Made by a program: the position numbers and the translations under genes. Below, piece by piece: positions 10,115 through 19,869 of a DNA stretch of 64,000 nucleotides. Positions within the stretch are counted from its first letter, which is position 1. Every line of letters starts with the position of its first letter. This stretch comes from Rhizoclosmatium globosum (lineage: Eukaryota > Chytridiomycota > Chytridiomycetes > Chytridiales > Chytriomycetaceae). The notes below the pieces were generated by a model. The model had not been told where the DNA came from and did no database searches. It saw only the letters and a program-made list of their open reading frames with translations. The stretch is from contig MCGO01000005.1 of assembly GCA_002104985.1 (NCBI GenBank), forward strand, positions 620,001-684,000. The letters are read 5' to 3'.

Positions 10115-11635
10115 TCAACCCCACACTTGCTTCACAATGTTCGAAGTCTCCATCAATTCCTGTTCATCAACTACATGAGTATCATTCTTTGTCTGAGGAT
10201 TTCCTTGGGGAGGAGCCACTTGTGGACGGGGAGGAGATATGGCTGGCATCACAACCATAGGAACTTGCATCTTCAGAATCTGCTCAGCAGGAACCAGCCC
10301 GATTCCAGGAAGGTCTACCATTGGAATTTGGACTCCTGGGTTACTTGGATCCTTTACCATAACTACTGCTAAGACAGGAGGTGCGGGAATATTAGGAGGA
10401 ACTTGGGGCTGGGCTGGAGTGGGAGCATTCACTGGATTTGTCGCAGGAACAAAAGGAGGAGTCACAGGAACTGGTTGTGACGGTTGGCGTTGAGGCGTGA
10501 GTTGCTTTTTCTTGACAACCACTGTGACACCCACTCCTTTACAATTTTGGCAAACTTGACAGTAAAAGCAACGCAAATTCGGTGGCGCATCATGCGGTCG
10601 TTCGTCGGATACAGGGTGGAAGAATCCAGAGAGCTCGCATGATGTGCACGGAATTGTGTCTTCATCTACCTTTCCTTTTCCTTGACAAGCTGTTGCGATA
10701 TAAATATCAGTACAAATAAACAACTCAGATGAAGCAAACCTTTGCAGTTAATACAGCTTTTACATCTAATATTGTCTTTCTTATCATGTCTGGCGGTAGA
10801 TTCGTGTTTCCATCCTCGAGCTTGAGAACAACATAGTAAGTATGGCACTTTGAGAATCCGTTGATACAAACCTGCACATCTAGGGCAATCAATAGTTTTT
10901 TTCAGGGCCTCTGAGAAAGCGGCGTCGTTTACAACGTTGACAAGGGTTTGTTGAGCAGTTTGATGTTTGGATTGAAGGAGCTTCTTCGATTGAAAGTGGG
11001 CCAAATCAGAAGTAAACAGAGAGTCAAAGAAGGGACTGCTTCCAATAAGAGTTGATTTCCCACGCGCAGGAGAGGAGCCATCAGGAATAGCTGACGGGTC
11101 CCAAGTCTGATCTTGCTGGCCAGGACTCGCACGAGGAAGCTGCTTTGCGATATGACGAGGGATACCACGTACACAATCTGCACAAATTAATAGCTTAGAG
11201 GGTGTAAAGAGAAGGTTTAGGTTGTGAAAGAACCTTTGCACTCGATACAGTCCACGCAAGCAATCATATTGTTGAATGGGTGTTTACTTGGCGCAGAGTT
11301 TGGATGGATGAAGCCACGAGCTTATCCGAGAAGCGAGTGAGTCAGCGAGTGAGAGAGAGAGCGAAGGACAAACCCTTGCAAGTCTTGCACGCCGTCTTTC
11401 CAACGACGATTCCGCTTCCGCCGCAAACTGACTCGCTTCAGCAAACATTCAACAACGAGTCACACTCACTGTTGCAGTCGTTGCACTTTTTGCAGCGCTC
11501 AAACAGCGTTCGCTTGTCGTGTTTGTCAACGGTGTCGTGGATGAAGCCGTATCCTGTCCCTCGATGTCAGTGCCGCACCTTCAGCCCTCTAAAGTATCTA
11601 CCTTCACACTTGGGGCACGCCGACCGCGCATTCAT
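10115..11635 (-). CDS. Cysteine-module repeat protein (CxxCxG zinc-ribbon-like)
   Basis: Splicing of short introns gives a protein beginning MNARSACPKCEG. It then repeats a module of CxxC pairs, a Gly-Phe-x-His segment and an HD dipeptide: CPKCEGTGYGFIHD, CKKCNDCNICGGSG, CKTCKARGFIHP, CIECKDC, then CPRCAG, CKSCINCKACQGKG, CTSCELSGFFHP and CFYCQVCQNCKGVG. The two halves look like an internal duplication, separated by about 80 residues without cysteine. The CxxCxGxG pairs resemble the DnaJ central zinc domain, but there is no J domain. The C-terminal 120 residues are Pro/Val-rich and low in complexity. No signal peptide is seen. The function is unknown. Metal binding is inferred from the cysteine spacing. 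Confidence 0.65.
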
Positions 11636-11754
11636 GTCTGTCAAGGCATGATGGGATGCCATGGGACTGTGAATCAAATGAAGAATGAAGGAGAGAAATC
11701 ACCACTCCATTTACATCATTTTCTCATAATGTGGTTATTCTCACGTCAATTTAT

Positions 11755-12200
11755 TTAGAAAAGTATGGATGCCATCACTATAAGTCCAACGGTAACACCA
11801 CTATCCATAACGCGATTTGCAGACGACCACCATTTCTTTGGCTGAGTGTTGTTTCCAGTCCCTGCATTTCCATATATATAGCCATTGTTACCACTATTCC
11901 CATTCCCATTATTATTCCCATTCACGCTGCTGGTACACGTTGTAGTTGGTACTGGTCCAGGGTAGTTTGTAGTAATTGGTGCGATTGGTCCAGGACCAGG
12001 ATAGTTATTTGCGGCTGTGGTGGCGATTGGTCCAGGGTTGGGATAATTGTTAGCAATAGTGGTGGTTGTCGGCCCATTCGGGTAGTTGGCTGTATGCATG
12101 ATAAGCCAAGACAAGAAGAATCAGGATTATTAATACCTTGGCCATGAACAACGGCACAGCCAATAGTTACTACAACTGCAATAAGACAAGATGGTTGCAT
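11755..12200 (-). CDS. Small secreted NYPGP-repeat protein, probably GPI-anchored
   Basis: Exon 1 encodes a signal peptide (MQPSCLIAVVVTIGCAVVHG). One intron of about 47 nt follows, and exon 2 encodes repeats of NYPNPGPIATT / NYPGPGPIAPITT type, then an Asn/Gly-rich stretch and a hydrophobic C-terminus (SGVTVGLIVMASILF). A signal peptide, low-complexity Pro/Thr repeats and a C-terminal hydrophobic tail are the usual layout of fungal GPI-anchored wall or surface proteins. No family was recognised. Confidence 0.65.
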
Positions 12201-12268
12201 TGAGTGTTTGTTTGATAAGTTTGGTGGGATGTTTTTTCAACAAGGGGGTTATCAAAACTGCACTGCAT

Positions 12269-13336
12269 TTATTCGTGTCGAAACAGGCGAAATTCCAGCG
12301 CATTCACTGCAGAAAGACGCTCACTAGGAATGAATTGAAGAAATCGTAACACTACATCAAGAAAGTCTATCCCCATTCTCATTTTCAAGCCTTTCCCTAC
12401 CAAGACATCATTCAAGTCTGTCCGACAGGCGTTCCGAAAATAAGAAGACAAAAAGTCCCAATCTGTTTGTGGTAAATAATTCAATTTGAACGCGTGAAGA
12501 ATCAAAGTCATCTGTTCTTGATCGGTATCACCAGCAAACAAGGGTTTACGAAGTGCAATTTCAACTAATACACACCCCAAAGCCCACAAGTCCACAGAAA
12601 CTGTGTACATTCTTTCTCCGAACAATATTTCAGGAGCCCTATACCATAATGTCTCGATTTCTCTTGTCAACTCTGATGGAAAGGGTTCCAGAACAGGTTT
12701 TGGCAGAATTAATTCAGAAGTAGGGACCTTCAAGGAAAATGCATCGTCAAAAGGGATTTCCAGGAGCTCATCGGGGAAGCATGGAACTGGGTGTGGTGGT
12801 GACGTCGCCAACGGAGAATTTGGTCGAGAGCGCATCGGAAACAGTCGCGCGGAACCAAAATCACATAGTTTTACATGAAATGTTGAAATGTCGACCAGAA
12901 TGTTTGCAGGTTTCAAATCTCGATTCATGATACAAATGCCATGCAAATAAGCAACCGCAGATACAATCTGCTTCATCATCTTCAACATGTTAGGTTCTGA
13001 AATAATGAGTTCAGAGTCCAAGACCATTTTCAGATCCGAATCCAAAGACTCGGTTTGAATGTAAACATTTTGTCCAAAGATGAACGAATCCTGAATCAAA
13101 ATGATGTTTTGATGCCTCACAGTCTTGAGGATATCAATTTCGCGGAATGCATTGGCTTTTTCTTTGGCTGTTCCAAGCGTATCACGTATGATCTTGATGG
13201 CGACAGGTGTCTCATAATGTGGAGATGTTGCACGAATTACAAGACCAAATGTGCCAGACCCAAGTACTTTGACAGGTGTAAGTGGTTCTGGTAAAGCATA
13301 TTGGACACCGTTGAAGGTGTGCAGTTTGAAGTTCAT
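12269..13336 (-). CDS. Divergent CMGC-type Ser/Thr protein kinase
   Basis: This intronless 355-residue kinase has a Gly-rich loop (VLGSGTFGLVIRA), the VAIKII lysine and a C-helix glutamate in FREIDILKTVRHQN. The catalytic loop reads MNRDLKPANIL, with Asn in place of the His of HRD. The DFG motif (CDFGSAR) is present and ETLWYRAPEIL marks the P+1 region, as in CDK/MAPK-like kinases. About 65 residues separate DFG from APE, including a Pro/Ser-rich insert, against about 25 in typical CDKs. The C-lobe has VDLWALGCVLVEI and ends soon after PSERLSAVNALE. All catalytic residues appear present, so activity is likely. The subfamily is not assigned. Confidence 0.85.
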   Translation of the reverse strand: MNFKLHTFNGVQYALPEPLTPVKVLGSGTFGLVIRATSPHYETPVAIKIIRDTLGTAKEKANAFREIDILKTVRHQNIILIQDSFIFGQNVYIQTESLDSDLKMVLDSELIISEPNMLKMMKQIVSAVAYLHGICIMNRDLKPANILVDISTFHVKLCDFGSARLFPMRSRPNSPLATSPPHPVPCFPDELLEIPFDDAFSLKVPTSELILPKPVLEPFPSELTREIETLWYRAPEILFGERMYTVSVDLWALGCVLVEIALRKPLFAGDTDQEQMTLILHAFKLNYLPQTDWDFLSSYFRNACRTDLNDVLVGKGLKMRMGIDFLDVVLRFLQFIPSERLSAVNALEFRLFRHE

Positions 13337-13428
13337 TCCAAAAATAGACTATGGTATAATTTAGAATAGTTGAAAGATAAAATCAATTTATTAGATTACA
13401 AGTAAATTCAACAAGAATGTGAAAGCCA

Positions 13429-15245
13429 TTAAGCGCGACGTTTGTTGCTTGCAGATCGAGCTCTGTTGTCAAACAAGTTGGCAACAAACGCGTTGATTTC
13501 AGCACGTTCTTGCGATGAGATTGCCTTCTTTGGAGCGCGATTCCGAATGATGGCTGACTCGTGAATCAAAATGTAACCCTTCTTGGGACCATTCCAAACC
13601 TGCTTGATGTCATTAACAGCAGCTTGCCACTTAATATGCTGGACAGGGTACTCGTAGAGAGCATTAATTCCTGCTCGGAGCTTGTCGGCGTCCGCCCAAT
13701 TGGTGTAAATTGCTCTTCTCGCAAGTTGCCATTCAAGAGACTCTGGAGAATACAAGTACATGGTGTTCAAGTGCTTGCGGTAACGCTGGTTGCCAAAGAA
13801 CTTGGATTGAGACGAAGCGTCGTCAAAGAGATTCTTGACGAAGGAGTTGATTTCGGACTTTTCTTTTGGTGAGAGCTGGTTCTTGTGGTGGACACGTTGT
13901 TTGATGATGGCAGATGGGTGGTAAGTGGTTCCAACCCACTTGGCTCCCCAGTGAGCGGAACGAGCTCTGGCAGGACCGTCGAACAAATGCTTGACAAAGT
14001 AGTTGATTTCGGCCTTCTCTTTAGGGGTAAGAGGTCTCTTGTTGACCTTCTTGCGCAAGATGCTTGCTGATGGGTGCAAGCTTGTCTTTACCTTTGGAGC
14101 CCAGATTGAAGTGATTCCGTTCTTGGCGGCTTGCCATTGCGCGCTGTCAGCAGCCGAGAAGAATAGAGTGATCAAGTGATTTGTAAGTTGATCAGCAATA
14201 GTCCAGTTGTTTTGGATTTCTTGAACCGCAAGTTGCCATTCACGGGATTCTGGGGAGTGTACAAAGAGCGAGTCAACGTGTCTCAGGTTGCGTTCGCGGG
14301 CGAAAAAGTTGGAAGGTTGAAGGTTTTTGTTGCTGGCAGATCTGGATCTGGTCGACTGAACGCTCTTTGTGCTCGCCGCACGGGATCTGGTTGATTGAAC
14401 GCTTTTGGTACTAGCAGCACGTGATCTGGAGGTTTGGCCGTCAAAGAGATTCTTGGTGAATGCGTTGATTTCAGCCTTTTCTTGAGACGAGAGCTGCTTC
14501 TTTGGGCCATGGTCATGAATAATGGCTGATGGATGGTAAGTTGTACCGGTCCATTTTGCTTTCCAACTTGCTGAGCGTGATCTGGATGGGCCATCGAACA
14601 TATGCTTAACAAAGTAATTAATTTCGGCCTTTTCTTGGGCAGTAAGAGGCTTCTTTGGAGCACGTTTTTTGATAATAGCTGAGTAATGCTTTGTAGGGAC
14701 GGATTTAGTCGTGGATTTAGCTTTAGCTGGAAGTGGTGGCTTGCTCTTTGAAACTGGAGAAGTGTTTCCGTCGCCGAACAAATAATTCATGAACCACAAG
14801 TCGTTCTCATCGTTGTTGTTGTTTGATTTACTGTTGTCAAACAAGTTGGTGTACCACAAATCGTCAGCGGGCTTGTTCAACTAGAATCTTTTAAGTCCAA
14901 CACCAGTGGTGAATGTGCTACGAACCTCAGTCATAGATTGGTCGTCATTACACCAATCTGGTTGCTTATGGCTAACTTTCTTGCTGTTCTTTGGAGCAGC
15001 ACTGTTAGTTCGAGAAGAGTGACTGCTGAAGTTTTCTTTGAATTCCACTTCTGATGGGTTTAAGGAGCGAGTGTTGTTTTGTTGGGCCTGGAATCCAAAT
15101 GTCAGAAATGTGAATATTGGAAGCAAGGGTGTTTTACGGCAGGAGTACGAGACTTTTGCTGGGGCGTACTAGGCTTGCTGTTTGGAGCAACCTTAGTTTG
15201 CAAGGGAGCATTGGGAGTCTGAGGTCTGGAAACCACACGAGTCAT
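13429..15245 (-). CDS. Internally repeated protein with five EKAEINxFVKxLFDG motifs
   Basis: Two short upstream exons (about 15245-15130 and 15080-14925) join to a long exon beginning LNKPADDLWYTNLFDN. The long exon carries five copies of a motif like LTAQEKAEINYFVKHMFDG, each near a basic or Arg/Ser-rich segment and usually a Tyr/His-x-Ser-Ala-Ile-Ile element (YHPSAIIHDHGPKK). Between them lie two longer related blocks, one starting LFVHSPESREWQLAVQEI and one MYLYSPESLEWQLARRAI, each ending in a WQAA..I..IW segment. Two extra LFD/LFG motifs lie at the N-terminus. There is no signal peptide or membrane segment. The family is not recognised. The first Met could instead be at 15293. Confidence 0.65.
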
Positions 15246-15373
15246 GTTTTTTGCGTTGTTTTGCGGATTCCCTCTTTCTTTTAATAGAGTCATATTGGTT
15301 GTGCGCCTCTTTTTTCATAATGCCTCATTGCAGTCCTTTTGCCTCAATTGTCAGCTTATTTTTGGAACAGGGA

Positions 15374-16721
15374 TGAACTTCTTTCTGGGACTATCACAAT
15401 CTGAAACTGAAGGATGTTCTCCTCACTGGCAGCATCAAGAAATCAGGAATGATTCTTCTGAGAGGTGGGTTTGAATTGTGTGTTGTTAACTGAAAGCTAT
15501 CCAGCTCCCTGAAGTTACGACCTGGAGAAGTCCTCGTCGCTATGTACGACAATATCGAAGACTCAAAAGATGTGATGAAAGAGATAGGAACTCTCTCAAT
15601 AACAACACTTAGGTTAATATGGCGGTCTCAGAGGAATAGAAAAAGCAATCTATGTGCGTCACTCTCATTTCATTATTTACTTTAACTTCCGATAGCGATA
15701 GGATATAACTGCCTACTATCTGTGATAACATCAGTTTCCGAGTCACGGATCAAAGGAGATCGGGTTTCTTTGTCCCTAACCGCAAAGTTCGAACGATCAC
15801 GCTTTGAGTTTAGCTTCTCTGGATCAAAGGAATCACGGAGCACATTGGCCCAAGAAGCTGCAAATCATGATATCTTTGCATCTGTCTTCGAAAAAACATA
15901 CCAATCGTTTTCATCCAGTAAGATCTATCGCGATTTGCGAGTAAAGGGAGCTATAGTCACGAATAATGAGTTGGATCTTCTGGAGTACGAGATTGTGTAT
16001 GCACAGGTATTTGTATTCTCTGTTTAATCAATCCATGAAGACTTGAATGGTAGATAAATGGAGTCTTAAATGTTTCAAACGACAAAGGAACGATTGGACG
16101 GATGGTTTTCACGAATATAAGGACAGTTTGGTTCTCTACAATGGAAGACTTCTCGAATGTATCTATTCCGCATCTACAAGTGGTTCGTTCATTTGACTCG
16201 AAACTTGCAAAATTCAACCATTTCAATAGTTACACGCTCGAGTGCAAAATTCTAAGTATGGTCCCGCACTGTGTATTGAAACATACAAAACTCCACTTGT
16301 TTTGTCATACAAGTTGGGATTTCAAGTCCCATCTGAGCCTCCAAACAAACTAAAGCAAATGGCCAACTTTATTCGGGATCTGGTTGTTTCATATTTTGAG
16401 AACCCGATATTTGGAGTTCAGTTTGAGGTAAGTTGTGTTTGCACTGAAGCCTGGATACTTATCCAGACAAATCAGGAATCTGTTAATGTCTCCGAACAAA
16501 GAACTTGTGATGCACGCGACAGCCAAGCAACATTAGCGACTGATGATGAAGAAGAAAACGACGGTATCACTGATGAGGAGATCCCGAGTCTGTTGAAGTA
16601 CATCGCTGAGGAAGAAAAGGAGGAGTTGGAATTCGTGTTTGACGAGAGACTCGGGTTAACCGTCACACGACCGAAAGGAAGTTCGTTAACGTCAGGTGAT
16701 TTGTGGAAATTGGTGGGTTGA
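15374..16721 (+). CDS. BBS5: BBS5, BBSome subunit
   Basis: Spliced exons give SLKLRPGEVLVAMYDNIED, then GTLSITTLRLIWRSQRNRK, IGYNCLLSVITS, KIYRDLRVKGAIV, INGVLNVSNDKGTIGRM, VFTNIRTVWFSTM and NPIFGVQFE, ending ERLGLTVTRPKGSSLTSGD-LWKLVG. The two PH-like (DM16) repeats and their order match BBS5, the phosphoinositide-binding subunit of the BBSome that moves membrane cargo in cilia. About five introns of 40-60 nt are used, for example the one ending before CGATAGGATATAAC near 15700. An acidic linker (DDEEENDGITDEEIP) precedes the C-terminus. Frames are intact. It is a further sign of a flagellated life stage. Confidence 0.88.
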
Positions 16722-16755
16722 TTTGAAAAGAATTTGTTTGAAATCTTGACCGAAA

Positions 16756-17627
16756 ATGGCCGCCATCACAACTCCGCCCTCATGCTGTGCACTTCCTGCT
16801 GTCCAGAGCAACTACACTTCCAAAGGAGAAGTGATTAAAGTCGGTGACCTCGACGTGTACGTTGTTGGACCAAAGGGTTCCAGCCGTGCCATCCTTGTCA
16901 ACTACGACATCTTCGGTGATCACCCATGCACCCGTCAAGTCTGCGATATTCTCTCTACCCAAGGATTCCGTGTCGCGATGCCAGACTTGTGCCGAGGTGG
17001 GTGATGTTAAGCGTGGTAGCGGATTGACAGGAACCGAACATCTAATTTCAAATCTCAACTCATCTAGGTGATCCATGGCCAGCCAACATCTGGCCACCTC
17101 CAAACGGCTTCCCGGAAGTATTGCAGCACATCCAGAAGCACGCCTCTTTCCCTGAAATCCAAAAGAACATGAAGGCTACTCAGGAGTTCTTGAGAAGCGA
17201 AGGATCCTCCCACTTTGGACTTATTGGATACTGTTGGGGAGGTTACATGGTTGCCCTCTTGTCCCAGGATCCTGTCTACGAGGCTGGTGCGATTGTTCAC
17301 CCAGCAGCTTTCCCCCTCGAAGAAGCTGCCAAGGTTTCATGCCCATTACTCATCTTGCCAGCAAGAGATGACGCTAAGGAGACCTTCGACGCCATCTTTG
17401 ATGTTGTTGTCAAGAAGAACCCAGCCAGCAAGCAGAGACGTTTTGACGATGGTATGTCACAATGTCACAACGATATACATTCCATTACTAATCCGTGTTA
17501 TTTCCGAATAGTTCACCACGGTTTCTGTGCTGCTAGAGCTGACTTCTCCGACGCGTTGAACGCCCAACGTGCCAACGAAGCTATCGAGGAAATGAGCCAC
17601 TTTTTCAAGGCTAACATCAAAGCCTAA
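16756..17627 (+). CDS. Dienelactone hydrolase family protein
   Basis: Three exons encode an alpha/beta hydrolase of about 240 residues. After the N-terminal strand region (GEVIKVGDLDVYVVGPKG) comes an ILVNYDIFGDHP segment, then the nucleophile elbow GYCWGGYM with catalytic Cys, the acid in LPARDDAKE and the His in VHHGFCAARADF. This is the Cys-Asp-His triad of the dienelactone hydrolase (carboxymethylenebutenolidase-like) family. In fungi most members are cytosolic esterases of uncertain substrate. Introns at about 16997-17068 and 17451-17510 interrupt it. It is convergent with the repeat-peptide gene to its right. Confidence 0.88.
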
Positions 17628-17684
17628 TCTTTATTTTTGGCGATTATGAAATAAATGAAAACCGGGGTATTACTTGGAAATAAG

Positions 17685-17702
17685 GTGTGTGTGTGTGTGT
17701 GT
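17685..17702 (+). repeat. GT dinucleotide microsatellite, nine units
   Basis: An uninterrupted run of nine GT units sits just past the stop codon of the minus-strand repeat-peptide gene, in its probable 3-prime UTR. Confidence 0.9.
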
Positions 17703-17710
17703 GCGAGGGA

Positions 17711-18790
17711 TTATTTCCCAGGGTTCTCCCATTGACCCGTAAAGTTGGGAGTGTATGGGCGGTTGATTGGTTCAGGCTAGTATTGTTGTTACATTCGTGA
17801 TTAAGGATATGTGCGTAACTTACGTCTCTGTGCTCATTGAAGTGAGTGTATGGACGGACAGGCTCAGGCTTTTGGGTTGGTAATTTCAGATAACGTAACT
17901 TTTCACCAAGTAAATATGTGATATTCACCTCACGCTTTCCTGGGTTCTCCCATTGTCCTGTAAAATCTGGGGTGTATGGACGCTTTGCGCGCTGAGGCTA
18001 TTTAACGTGTTTGTTAGCGAAAGTTGGGTTGATACAACGTTTTCTCACATCTCTTTCTTCAAAGTGGGTGTAGTAATGAACTGGCTCCTCCTAATAACGT
18101 TAGAGTAGTTAGAGATCATGGTTGTTGTTGATGAAATCGAATATTTACATCGCGTTTTCCTGGGTTCTCCCACTGTCCAGTAAAGTCTGGAGTATATGGA
18201 CGGTTAATGGGCTATATCAAAGTTAGCAAATTCATGAATTCCATTTTAATGGCTTACGTCTCTCTTTCCAGGGTTTTCCCACTGGCCAGTAAAATCAGGT
18301 GTGTAAGGGCGGTTAATTGGCTGTGAAGTTGATCAGTACCGGAAGTCCAACACCTGACTTAAACCCTTACATCTCTCTTTCCTGGATTCTCCCATTGTCC
18401 AGTGAAGTCAGGGGTGTATGGGCGGTTGATTGGTTCAGGCTAAAACATAGCATTAATTCTGGGCTCAATCTTTAAGTAATAGCACTCACGTCTCTCCTTC
18501 CTGGATTCTCCCACTGTCCCGTGAAATCAGGAGTATATGGGCGGTTGATTGGTTCAGGCTACAAAGAACGAAGTTAGAGTTGACACCCCAAACTAAAATC
18601 TGAACATACATCTCTCTTTTCTACTTCTGTGTAGATGTGCTCAGGCTCATCCTGGTATAAAGCGTTAATTTTCAACGAATAATTACAAAGCAGGACGTTT
18701 ACATCTCTCTTTCCTGGGTTCTCCCATTGTCCTGTGAAATCAGGGGTATATGGGCGGTTGATTGGCTCTCGCTTTCCGTGGTCAACCTTA
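17711..18790 (-). repeat. Exon-per-unit tandem repeat (seven 63-69 nt coding units plus introns)
   Basis: Each repeat unit is one exon flanked by its own intron. The coding parts are nearly identical in DNA as well as protein: reverse-strand CCATAYACYCC...GGACARTGGGAGAA recurs at about 17740, 17960, 18185, 18275, 18390, 18510 and 18730. The introns differ. Expansion by duplication of exon-plus-intron units, followed by intron drift or coding homogenisation, fits this pattern. Confidence 0.8.
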
Positions 18791-19167
18791 TTAACGAAGA
18801 TAGTCAGATTAGTTATTATGTGTTGCCAATTACTGAAATGTACCTCTCGCTCCTGAATGTGAGGTACGTCTCGTTCAACTGGAATTGGCTGATAAAAGAG
18901 TCGTAAGAATTGATGTTGGCAATCAAGTTAAGTCTATTACATCTCTCTTGTGAGATTCTCCGTTGAAAAACTTTGGTTCGGGCTGCCAGTGATTTAGCAA
19001 ACGCTTAATAATCTTGAAGTTAATCTTACCACTGGGCCTGGGGCGGGAATAGGGGCAGTTTGAACCACCTACGGCATATATTGTTAATCTGCATGCACCA
19101 ACAAGCAAAGGCAGCTTACAGTCGCAGTGACGATAGCGCAAATGGTGGCAAGGTTGGAAAGCTTCAT
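17711..19167 (-). CDS. Secreted repeat-peptide precursor, Kex2-type (seven PYTPDFTGQWENP cores)
   Basis: Exon 1 encodes a signal peptide (MKLSNLATICAIVTAT). About a dozen tiny exons follow, separated by phase-0 introns of 45-60 nt. Seven exons each carry one copy of PINRPYTPDFTGQWENPGKR followed by D or E. One copy has GRR, one has TPN for TPD, and the last ends at GK-stop. Four interspersed exons carry a second, shorter module (EPEHIYTEVEKRD, EPVHYYTHFEERD, EPVRPYTHFNEHRD, PIPVERDVPHIQERE). Copies begin with acidic/Pro dipeptides (PEPIN after KRD), like the Ste13-trimmed spacers of yeast alpha-factor, and end in dibasic KR/RR, the Kex2 site. Gly before KR would be an amidation signal where the enzyme exists. 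Release of multiple identical peptides is inferred. Pheromone, signalling or RiPP-like roles are all possible. Confidence 0.82.
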
Positions 19168-19869
19168 TTTGGAGGACCTTTTTTCGTAATTCTGCGGTAC
19201 ATGATTGGGATCGTGAAAACAATGGATGGAAGCAGAACAAAATTTCTGATTGGTGTTCTCTACACGTAAGTGATTGGATGATTTGCTGAACCCTTTGATT
19301 TTGATTGGGGCTTCCGTCGTGAGGACGTTGGACAGGAGAAGGTAAGGCGCTGATGCCGTGATTGCAGGTTCACTGCAATGGGGTATTGTTTTTAAGGGTT
19401 ATAAAGAGTGTTAAACGTGTTTATTTGGTAACATGAACGAAAGTGTGACATTAGTTATCTATGACATTCAACTTTATCAAGGGCTTTGGCCAGCAACCGC
19501 CACAATATTAAGTGGGACGGCGTTTGGTGGCATAGGAGATCCTGGAATTGGTGGGCTTGTATCAATGAGCTTTTTAGCATTGACTCCCTTGATTATATAA
19601 TGTGTTAATGAATGTTTTCAGATGGCAACAGTTAACTGACCAACAGCATGGCAGATAGCAAGAAAAGTACGTTCGAAGCTTTCATTTCTTCAAGATATAG
19701 AGGCAAGATTCGTTGGTTGTTTTTTAAATGGTTTTTTCTAATTCTTGTCTTCCCCAATCAGGAATCACCGTATGACTTACAATATTCAGATAAACAATGA
19801 AACAACTGAAAGTAATTACAATCAAATGTAAGAATTTTATTATTTAAAGATTGAAAGAAATCAACGGTT
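19168..19869. other. Intergenic region between two secreted-precursor genes
   Basis: About 700 bp upstream of the repeat-peptide gene and downstream of the next minus-strand gene. On the minus strand it should hold the repeat-peptide promoter. One possible 55-codon plus-strand ORF lies inside and is listed separately. I see no tRNA, transposon or longer ORF. Confidence 0.5.
19433..19600 (+). CDS. Possible small ORF (55 aa), uncertain
   Basis: The ORF begins MNESVTLVIYDIQLYQGLWP and continues into a Gly/Leu-rich hydrophobic tail before TAA at 19598. A TATAAAG-like element lies about 35 bp upstream. There is no homologue I recognise and no repeat or motif, so it may be chance. It is listed because it lies in an otherwise empty 700 bp stretch. 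Confidence 0.2.
   Translation: MNESVTLVIYDIQLYQGLWPATATILSGTAFGGIGDPGIGGLVSMSFLALTPLII

Follow-up and report, generated by a model that had tools for sequence, protein, structure and literature searches.

The window, the whole 64,000-nucleotide stretch of Rhizoclosmatium globosum DNA that was analysed, carries on its minus strand, from 19167 to 17711, a predicted gene of 14 exons with a product of 261 aa. The ATG start codon lies at 19167 and the TAA stop codon ends at 17711, in agreement with the coordinates 17711..19167 of the original prediction. The host is a Rhizoclosmatium-type chytrid, which matches the zoosporic fungus that had been proposed. The exons, with boundaries from the gene model unless further evidence is given, and the neighbouring gene are as follows:

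19120..19167, minus strand, exon 1, predicted start of the signal peptide (MKLSNLATICAIVTAT); 1 residue differs in R. hyalinum P0001
19030..19068, minus strand, exon 2, predicted end of the signal and pro region (VVQTAPIPAPGPV)
18941..18982, minus strand, exon 3, short unit PEPKFFNGESHKRD
18844..18888, minus strand, exon 4, PIPVERDVPHIQERE; gene model and comparison with the R. hyalinum protein
18703..18786, minus strand, exon 5, VDHGKRE and long core 1 (PINRPYTPDFTGQWENPGKRD)
18610..18651, minus strand, exon 6, short unit DEPEHIYTEVEKRD
18490..18558, minus strand, exon 7, long core 2 (PEPINRPYTPDFTGQWENPGRRD)
18371..18439, minus strand, exon 8, long core 3 (PEPINRPYTPDFTGQWENPGKRD)
18258..18320, minus strand, exon 9, long core 4 (PINRPYTPDFTGQWENPGKRD)
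18149..18211, minus strand, exon 10, long core 5 (PINRPYTPDFTGQWENPGKRD)
18049..18090, minus strand, exon 11, short unit EEPVHYYTHFEERD, monobasic end
17929..17997, minus strand, exon 12, long core 6 (PQRAKRPYTPDFTGQWENPGKRE), KR-P probably uncut; gene model and R. hyalinum comparison
17824..17868, minus strand, exon 13, short unit PEPVRPYTHFNEHRD, monobasic end
17711..17776, minus strand, exon 14, long core 7 and stop (PEPINRPYTPNFTGQWENPGK*)
16756..17627, plus strand, dienelactone hydrolase, convergent neighbour outside the precursor; Pfam and R. hyalinum homologue HDU99_002004

Directly upstream, at 20349-19870 on the minus strand, there is a second small predicted secreted precursor (MKFSLFSLLGFLALTLCT, LQTTAIPVPQGTKSPIE, KPTHVPHHKRDEPPTF and onwards). 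It seems to have two phase-0 introns and contains a KRD-EPP site as well as RRR/KRR sites. By eye, exons 1 and 2 are similar to those of the main gene, and its third exon matches only itself and a duplicate contig in the genome. A match to BBS5, a ciliary BBSome subunit, lies close to the precursor at 16230-16718 on the plus strand, and fits a flagellated fungus.

All 14 exon lengths are multiples of 3 in the final model, and the 13 introns (46-60 nt, with GT..AG ends) all fall between codons (phase 0). This structure is a gene model built from sequence. Since IPHIQERE is retained in the R. hyalinum protein, GTACAT was taken as the donor of exon 4; an earlier version had a shorter exon 4 and an 81-nt intron. 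Exons 1-2 form a signal-like start by eye (MKLSNLATICAIVTAT-VVQTAPIPAPGPV), in which MKLSNLATICAIVTATVVQTA is the candidate ER signal peptide. The long core RPYTP(D/N)FTGQWENPG is found in seven exons (5, 7, 8, 9, 10, 12 and 14) and shorter modules in four, namely FFNGESHKR, IYTEVEKR, VHYYTHFEER and VRPYTHFNEHR in exons 3, 6, 11 and 13. This is the inventory of seven long and four short modules that had been described, except that exon 4 (PIPVERDVPHIQERE), a further unit beside them, had been missed and that exons 1-2 are assigned to the signal and pro region. Nearly every unit is its own phase-0 exon, where this had been claimed of every unit. Exon 5 also carries the short VDHGKRE leader before its core. 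Exons 3-13 end in a basic residue and Asp/Glu, with KR or RR in 8/11 and a single Arg in exons 4, 11 and 13 (3/11). The flanking of the cores by GKR/GRR holds in so far as six of the seven end in KR or RR; the seventh, in exon 14, has PN instead of PD and ends in PGK-stop.

Cutting the predicted protein after KR or RR, except before Pro, yields ten computed fragments. After the nine expected cuts the P1' residue is Asp or Glu in all nine cases, and the second residue is Pro in seven, which corresponds to a Ste13-type X-Pro spacer behind the Kex2 site; a DPP-IV gene is present in the genome. The Kex2-type multi-copy arrangement that had been predicted, with seven cores, dibasic sites followed by an acidic residue, and Ste13-type spacers, is thus recovered. 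The product is probably a secreted precursor that holds multiple peptide copies and belongs to the Kex2-processed repeat proteins (KEPs), with alpha-factor-like processing. In such a route the chain would enter the ER, a kexin would cut after KR and RR, a Kex1-like carboxypeptidase would trim Lys and Arg to leave ...ENPG, and a Ste13-like dipeptidyl peptidase would strip X-Pro pairs and stop at Ile-Asn. The expected product is INRPYTPDFTGQWENPG, a peptide of 17 aa with a monoisotopic mass of 1990.917 Da as the free acid, and a few other peptides would be released beside it. Single Arg is a poor Kex2 site, as is KR before Pro. Copies 6 and 7 would remain joined to the preceding short units because those end in single Arg, and five clean and two N-extended copies of INRPYTPDFTGQWENPG are therefore the likeliest outcome. 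For the same reason of site quality exon 12 was rejected as an exact copy starting at PYTP, since its KR precedes Pro, and this copy is probably N-extended. The peptide boundary is probably INRP...NPG rather than the PYTP...NP of the original prediction, because X-Pro trimming should halt at Ile-Asn.

Candidate enzymes for each cleavage are found in the genome, where a search for Kex2 and Ste13-like genes had been proposed. The P_proprotein model gives 24 matches, 8 of them on contig C43, and DPPIV_N, the DPP-IV/Ste13 relative, gives two, on contigs C175 and C323. One kexin-like gene piece matches the PDB kexin 2id4 at 5e-53, and behind it a membrane anchor and an acidic tail can be made out by eye; this places a kexin in the organism. 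Peptidase_S10 has 43 matches, a number in which Kex1 and other serine carboxypeptidases are not told apart. These enzyme families also do other jobs, and their presence only permits the processing route. The kexin-like proteases are clustered, with 21/24 P_proprotein matches on C43, C420 and C390; the clusters appear to be an expansion, in which some copies are perhaps haplotype duplicates.

To what extent the copies have been kept for their peptide was judged from the cores themselves, selected by the pattern demanding most residues; all exons were read, every long unit was included, and the short units, being different modules, stand outside the count. Codon by codon, the seven cores (16 codons, all 21 pairs) give pS 0.743 and pN 0.015, and the amino-acid differences of all pairs add up to 12. 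Neutral simulations were run at four levels, set to either side of the DNA divergence seen in the cores; their mean totals were 84-143 amino-acid differences, and 0/8000 runs were as low as 12. The core repeat is not due to chance. Among 78 intron pairs there is no clear similarity (best z 2.7). The core comparison shows purifying selection across the copies. With high pS, low pN and dissimilar introns, the copies look old, individually selected and kept for their peptide, and not recently homogenised. The array is absent from the Tandem Repeats Finder list, probably because the introns differ, and an exact DNA pattern for the core, which was too strict, had no match even within the window.

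A protein search (E up to 1, lengths of about 139-443 aa, the 8000 candidates sharing most words scored) returned as sole match of the precursor HDU99_002005 of R. hyalinum, which is deposited as a hypothetical protein. It is an apparent orthologue with 256/261 exonic residues identical, and one of the five differences is a D to A change at P1' that retains X-Pro. The deposited protein is without the sequence of 11/13 R. globosum introns. Introns 5 and 12, however, are treated as coding in its model; both are open in the R. globosum frame, so splicing at these junctions may differ. An in-phase stop is missing from four of the 13 introns, and three of these (4, 5 and 12) are also multiples of 3, so that the gene would tolerate their retention. 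Because R. globosum and R. hyalinum are so similar in sequence, conservation between them adds little to what the comparison of copies within the gene shows.

The hydrolase next to the precursor shares 99% identity with HDU99_002004 of R. hyalinum; as the tags HDU99_002004 and HDU99_002005 are consecutive, with 8376 bases as the longest contig for both entries, the gene order is conserved. With E no higher than 1e-60, the hydrolase retrieves 15 proteins; they come from R. hyalinum and a further 12 chytrids, which include Obelidium, Siphonaria, Chytriomyces and Physocladia. No precursor homologue was found in other chytrids, though the same protein database has their hydrolase; the conservation expected of the repeat was found in one close relative, R. 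hyalinum. Short exons and tiny introns may have been missed by gene callers in the relatives. A shorter composite query did not bring up a homologue either, as none of its 31 candidates had an E of 10 or less, and the PDB had no match to the precursor at E up to 1. When Pfam was run on the entire precursor, Tn7_TnsA-like_N scored 33.1 bits, over its cut-off of 26.5 (E 8e-8), and SnoaL_2 and Cap15_CD_rec stayed below theirs; we take all three to be repeat artefacts, as no single stretch passes.

Within the genome itself, two long units and one short unit joined as a query gave 14 matches at E up to 10, seven at the precursor locus and seven on the duplicate contig C313, where positions 11500-19500, the 8001 bp that were compared, match the window with 100% identity. 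C313 is possibly an assembly duplicate or an identical haplotype, and holds no information on allelic variation. Like-built genes were sought genome-wide with two patterns of KR-Asp/Glu followed by a donor site. These matched 39 and 41 times, and their backward controls 27 and 35 times; 10 and 4 of the matches are the precursor locus and the duplicate contig, and these two narrow patterns brought out no other cluster of such genes. The string GGAAAAAGAGATGTGA, among the matches of the pattern search, is found unchanged on nine contigs, perhaps as part of a dispersed repeat.

Two surveys describe KEPs as widespread in fungi, chytrids included, and report X-Pro trimming motifs outside Ascomycota (PMC6339444, PMC7329392). 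As in the chytrid precursor, fungal KEPs there have a secretory start and near-identical cores between Kex2 sites, and the X-Pro trimming motif is shared with alpha-pheromones and with some basidiomycete and Rhizophagus KEPs. In contrast to KEPs, the chytrid units are their own phase-0 exons; the words intron and exon are absent from the main texts of both surveys, and no report of a one-peptide-per-exon precursor in fungi was found in the open-licence literature. Ascomycete alpha-factor (MF(ALPHA)1) likewise has KR followed by acidic-Ala/Pro dipeptides, several copies and a Kex2/Kex1/Ste13 logic, whereas the chytrid precursor has no MF_alpha Pfam match (E up to 0.01) and an unrelated 17-aa core. 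Judged by sequence, the locus is well supported as a gene and would represent a new version of a known precursor type, precursors of this kind being already known in chytrids and the one-peptide-per-exon build being the apparent new variant feature.

The same build is described for honeybee apidaecin, in which each exon holds one peptide and maturation is compared with that of yeast alpha-factor; splice variation is proposed as well (PMC1847501, PMC3415428). The likeness is presumably convergent. It raises the idea of a peptide that acts against microbes or competitors and whose output is raised by copy number. In apidaecin, too, several exons each encode one peptide and Kex2/Kex1/dipeptidyl peptidase maturation is proposed in the same reports, and the chytrid core does have Arg-Pro and further Pro. 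The 17-mer is, however, net acidic (one Arg, one Asp, one Glu) and not cationic, and apidaecin, an animal antimicrobial with variable copies, has exons that are reported to vary greatly in number and sequence between individual bees, whereas the chytrid copies are nearly identical. We regard this reading as unlikely. A surface or structural repeat peptide, comparable to the Ustilago Rep1 repellents that assemble on the cell wall, is improbable as well: identical repeats could favour self-assembly, and amyloid-like fibrils of Rep1-derived peptides are described (PMC9769878), but the chytrid core is short and polar, contains Pro and Gly and has no hydrophobic stretch, and X-Pro trimming signals are best known from diffusible pheromones.

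The original prediction had also allowed for amidation through the Gly before the basic pair, and Gly indeed precedes a basic residue in all seven long units (in the last, Gly-Lys-stop, Lys only). A search for the amidating PHM looked positive, with 12 PF01082 matches on three contigs (C388, C384 and C133), but the genes read, on C388 and on C384 near 116 kb, carry an HMH motif and are dopamine beta-hydroxylase (DBH)-like. For the second copper domain of the one piece compared with the PDB, dopamine beta-hydroxylase (9e-17) is favoured over PHM (6e-7), and two residues before the first His it has Gly where PHM has the Arg that binds the peptide. No PHM/PAM was found in the genome, where one divided among very short exons might go undetected, and PAM is missing throughout fungi according to a review. 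No direct report of amidation in early fungi was found in the open-licence literature. A C-terminally amidated peptide, as in animals, is accordingly very improbable, and a free Gly end would be the better guess. The DBH-like copper monooxygenases form a family with DOMON-like first exons on C388, C384 and C133, unusual in a fungus to our knowledge, whose copies on different contigs share about 97% identity; for the second C384 locus and for C133 the assignment comes solely from about 97% DNA identity to C388. The first exon of one gene has a DOMON match below the Pfam cut-off (29 against 32.7 bits), and the paralogous first exon has no Pfam match.

A RiPP core had also been suggested. A RiPP precursor with core Tyr/Trp cross-linked by UstYa-type oxidases (the dikaritin kind) would suit a multi-core Kex2 precursor with aromatic residues and is very improbable, as PF11807 has no match genome-wide (a profile run without positive control), no biosynthetic enzyme cluster appears among the nine neighbour segments given to Pfam, and the 178 chytrid KEPs in the table cited include 0 in the DUF3328 count (PMC7329392).

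The role towards which we lean slightly is that of a diffusible signal read by one specific receptor, because the seven copies stay nearly identical and are not diversified. A pheromone or a swarming signal is possible. The STE2 model gave 0 matches and the STE3 model none genome-wide (both profiles run without positive control). According to the literature, only Ascomycota have STE2-like receptors, and chytrids show an enrichment of Glutamate-type GPCRs (PMC12842992). More tentatively, and as a rather doubtful extension, the peptide may be a cue for mating, settlement or swarming that is read by another receptor class, in a lineage that seems to lack Ste2, with splicing of the one-peptide exons setting the number and kind of peptides per transcript. 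The exons are symmetric and phase 0, so units could be skipped without frame shift. Coprinopsis KEPs have been expressed in Pichia pastoris, and knock-outs of C. cinerea KEPs had no detectable phenotype (PMC9769878); the latter result cautions against presuming a strong role.

No direct report on Rhizoclosmatium and pheromones, or on chytrid STE3/KEX2, was found in the open-licence literature. On peptide pheromones of chytrid zoospores that literature gave just one paper, a GPCR survey, and the peptide signals of zoosporic fungi seem hardly explored. The gene supplies an exact predicted peptide and mass to look for, and the copies themselves give strong sequence evidence that the peptide matters. 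Its copy number could be tuned by exon skipping, and the exon design, being like that of apidaecin, may be a modular solution that two kingdoms have both arrived at.
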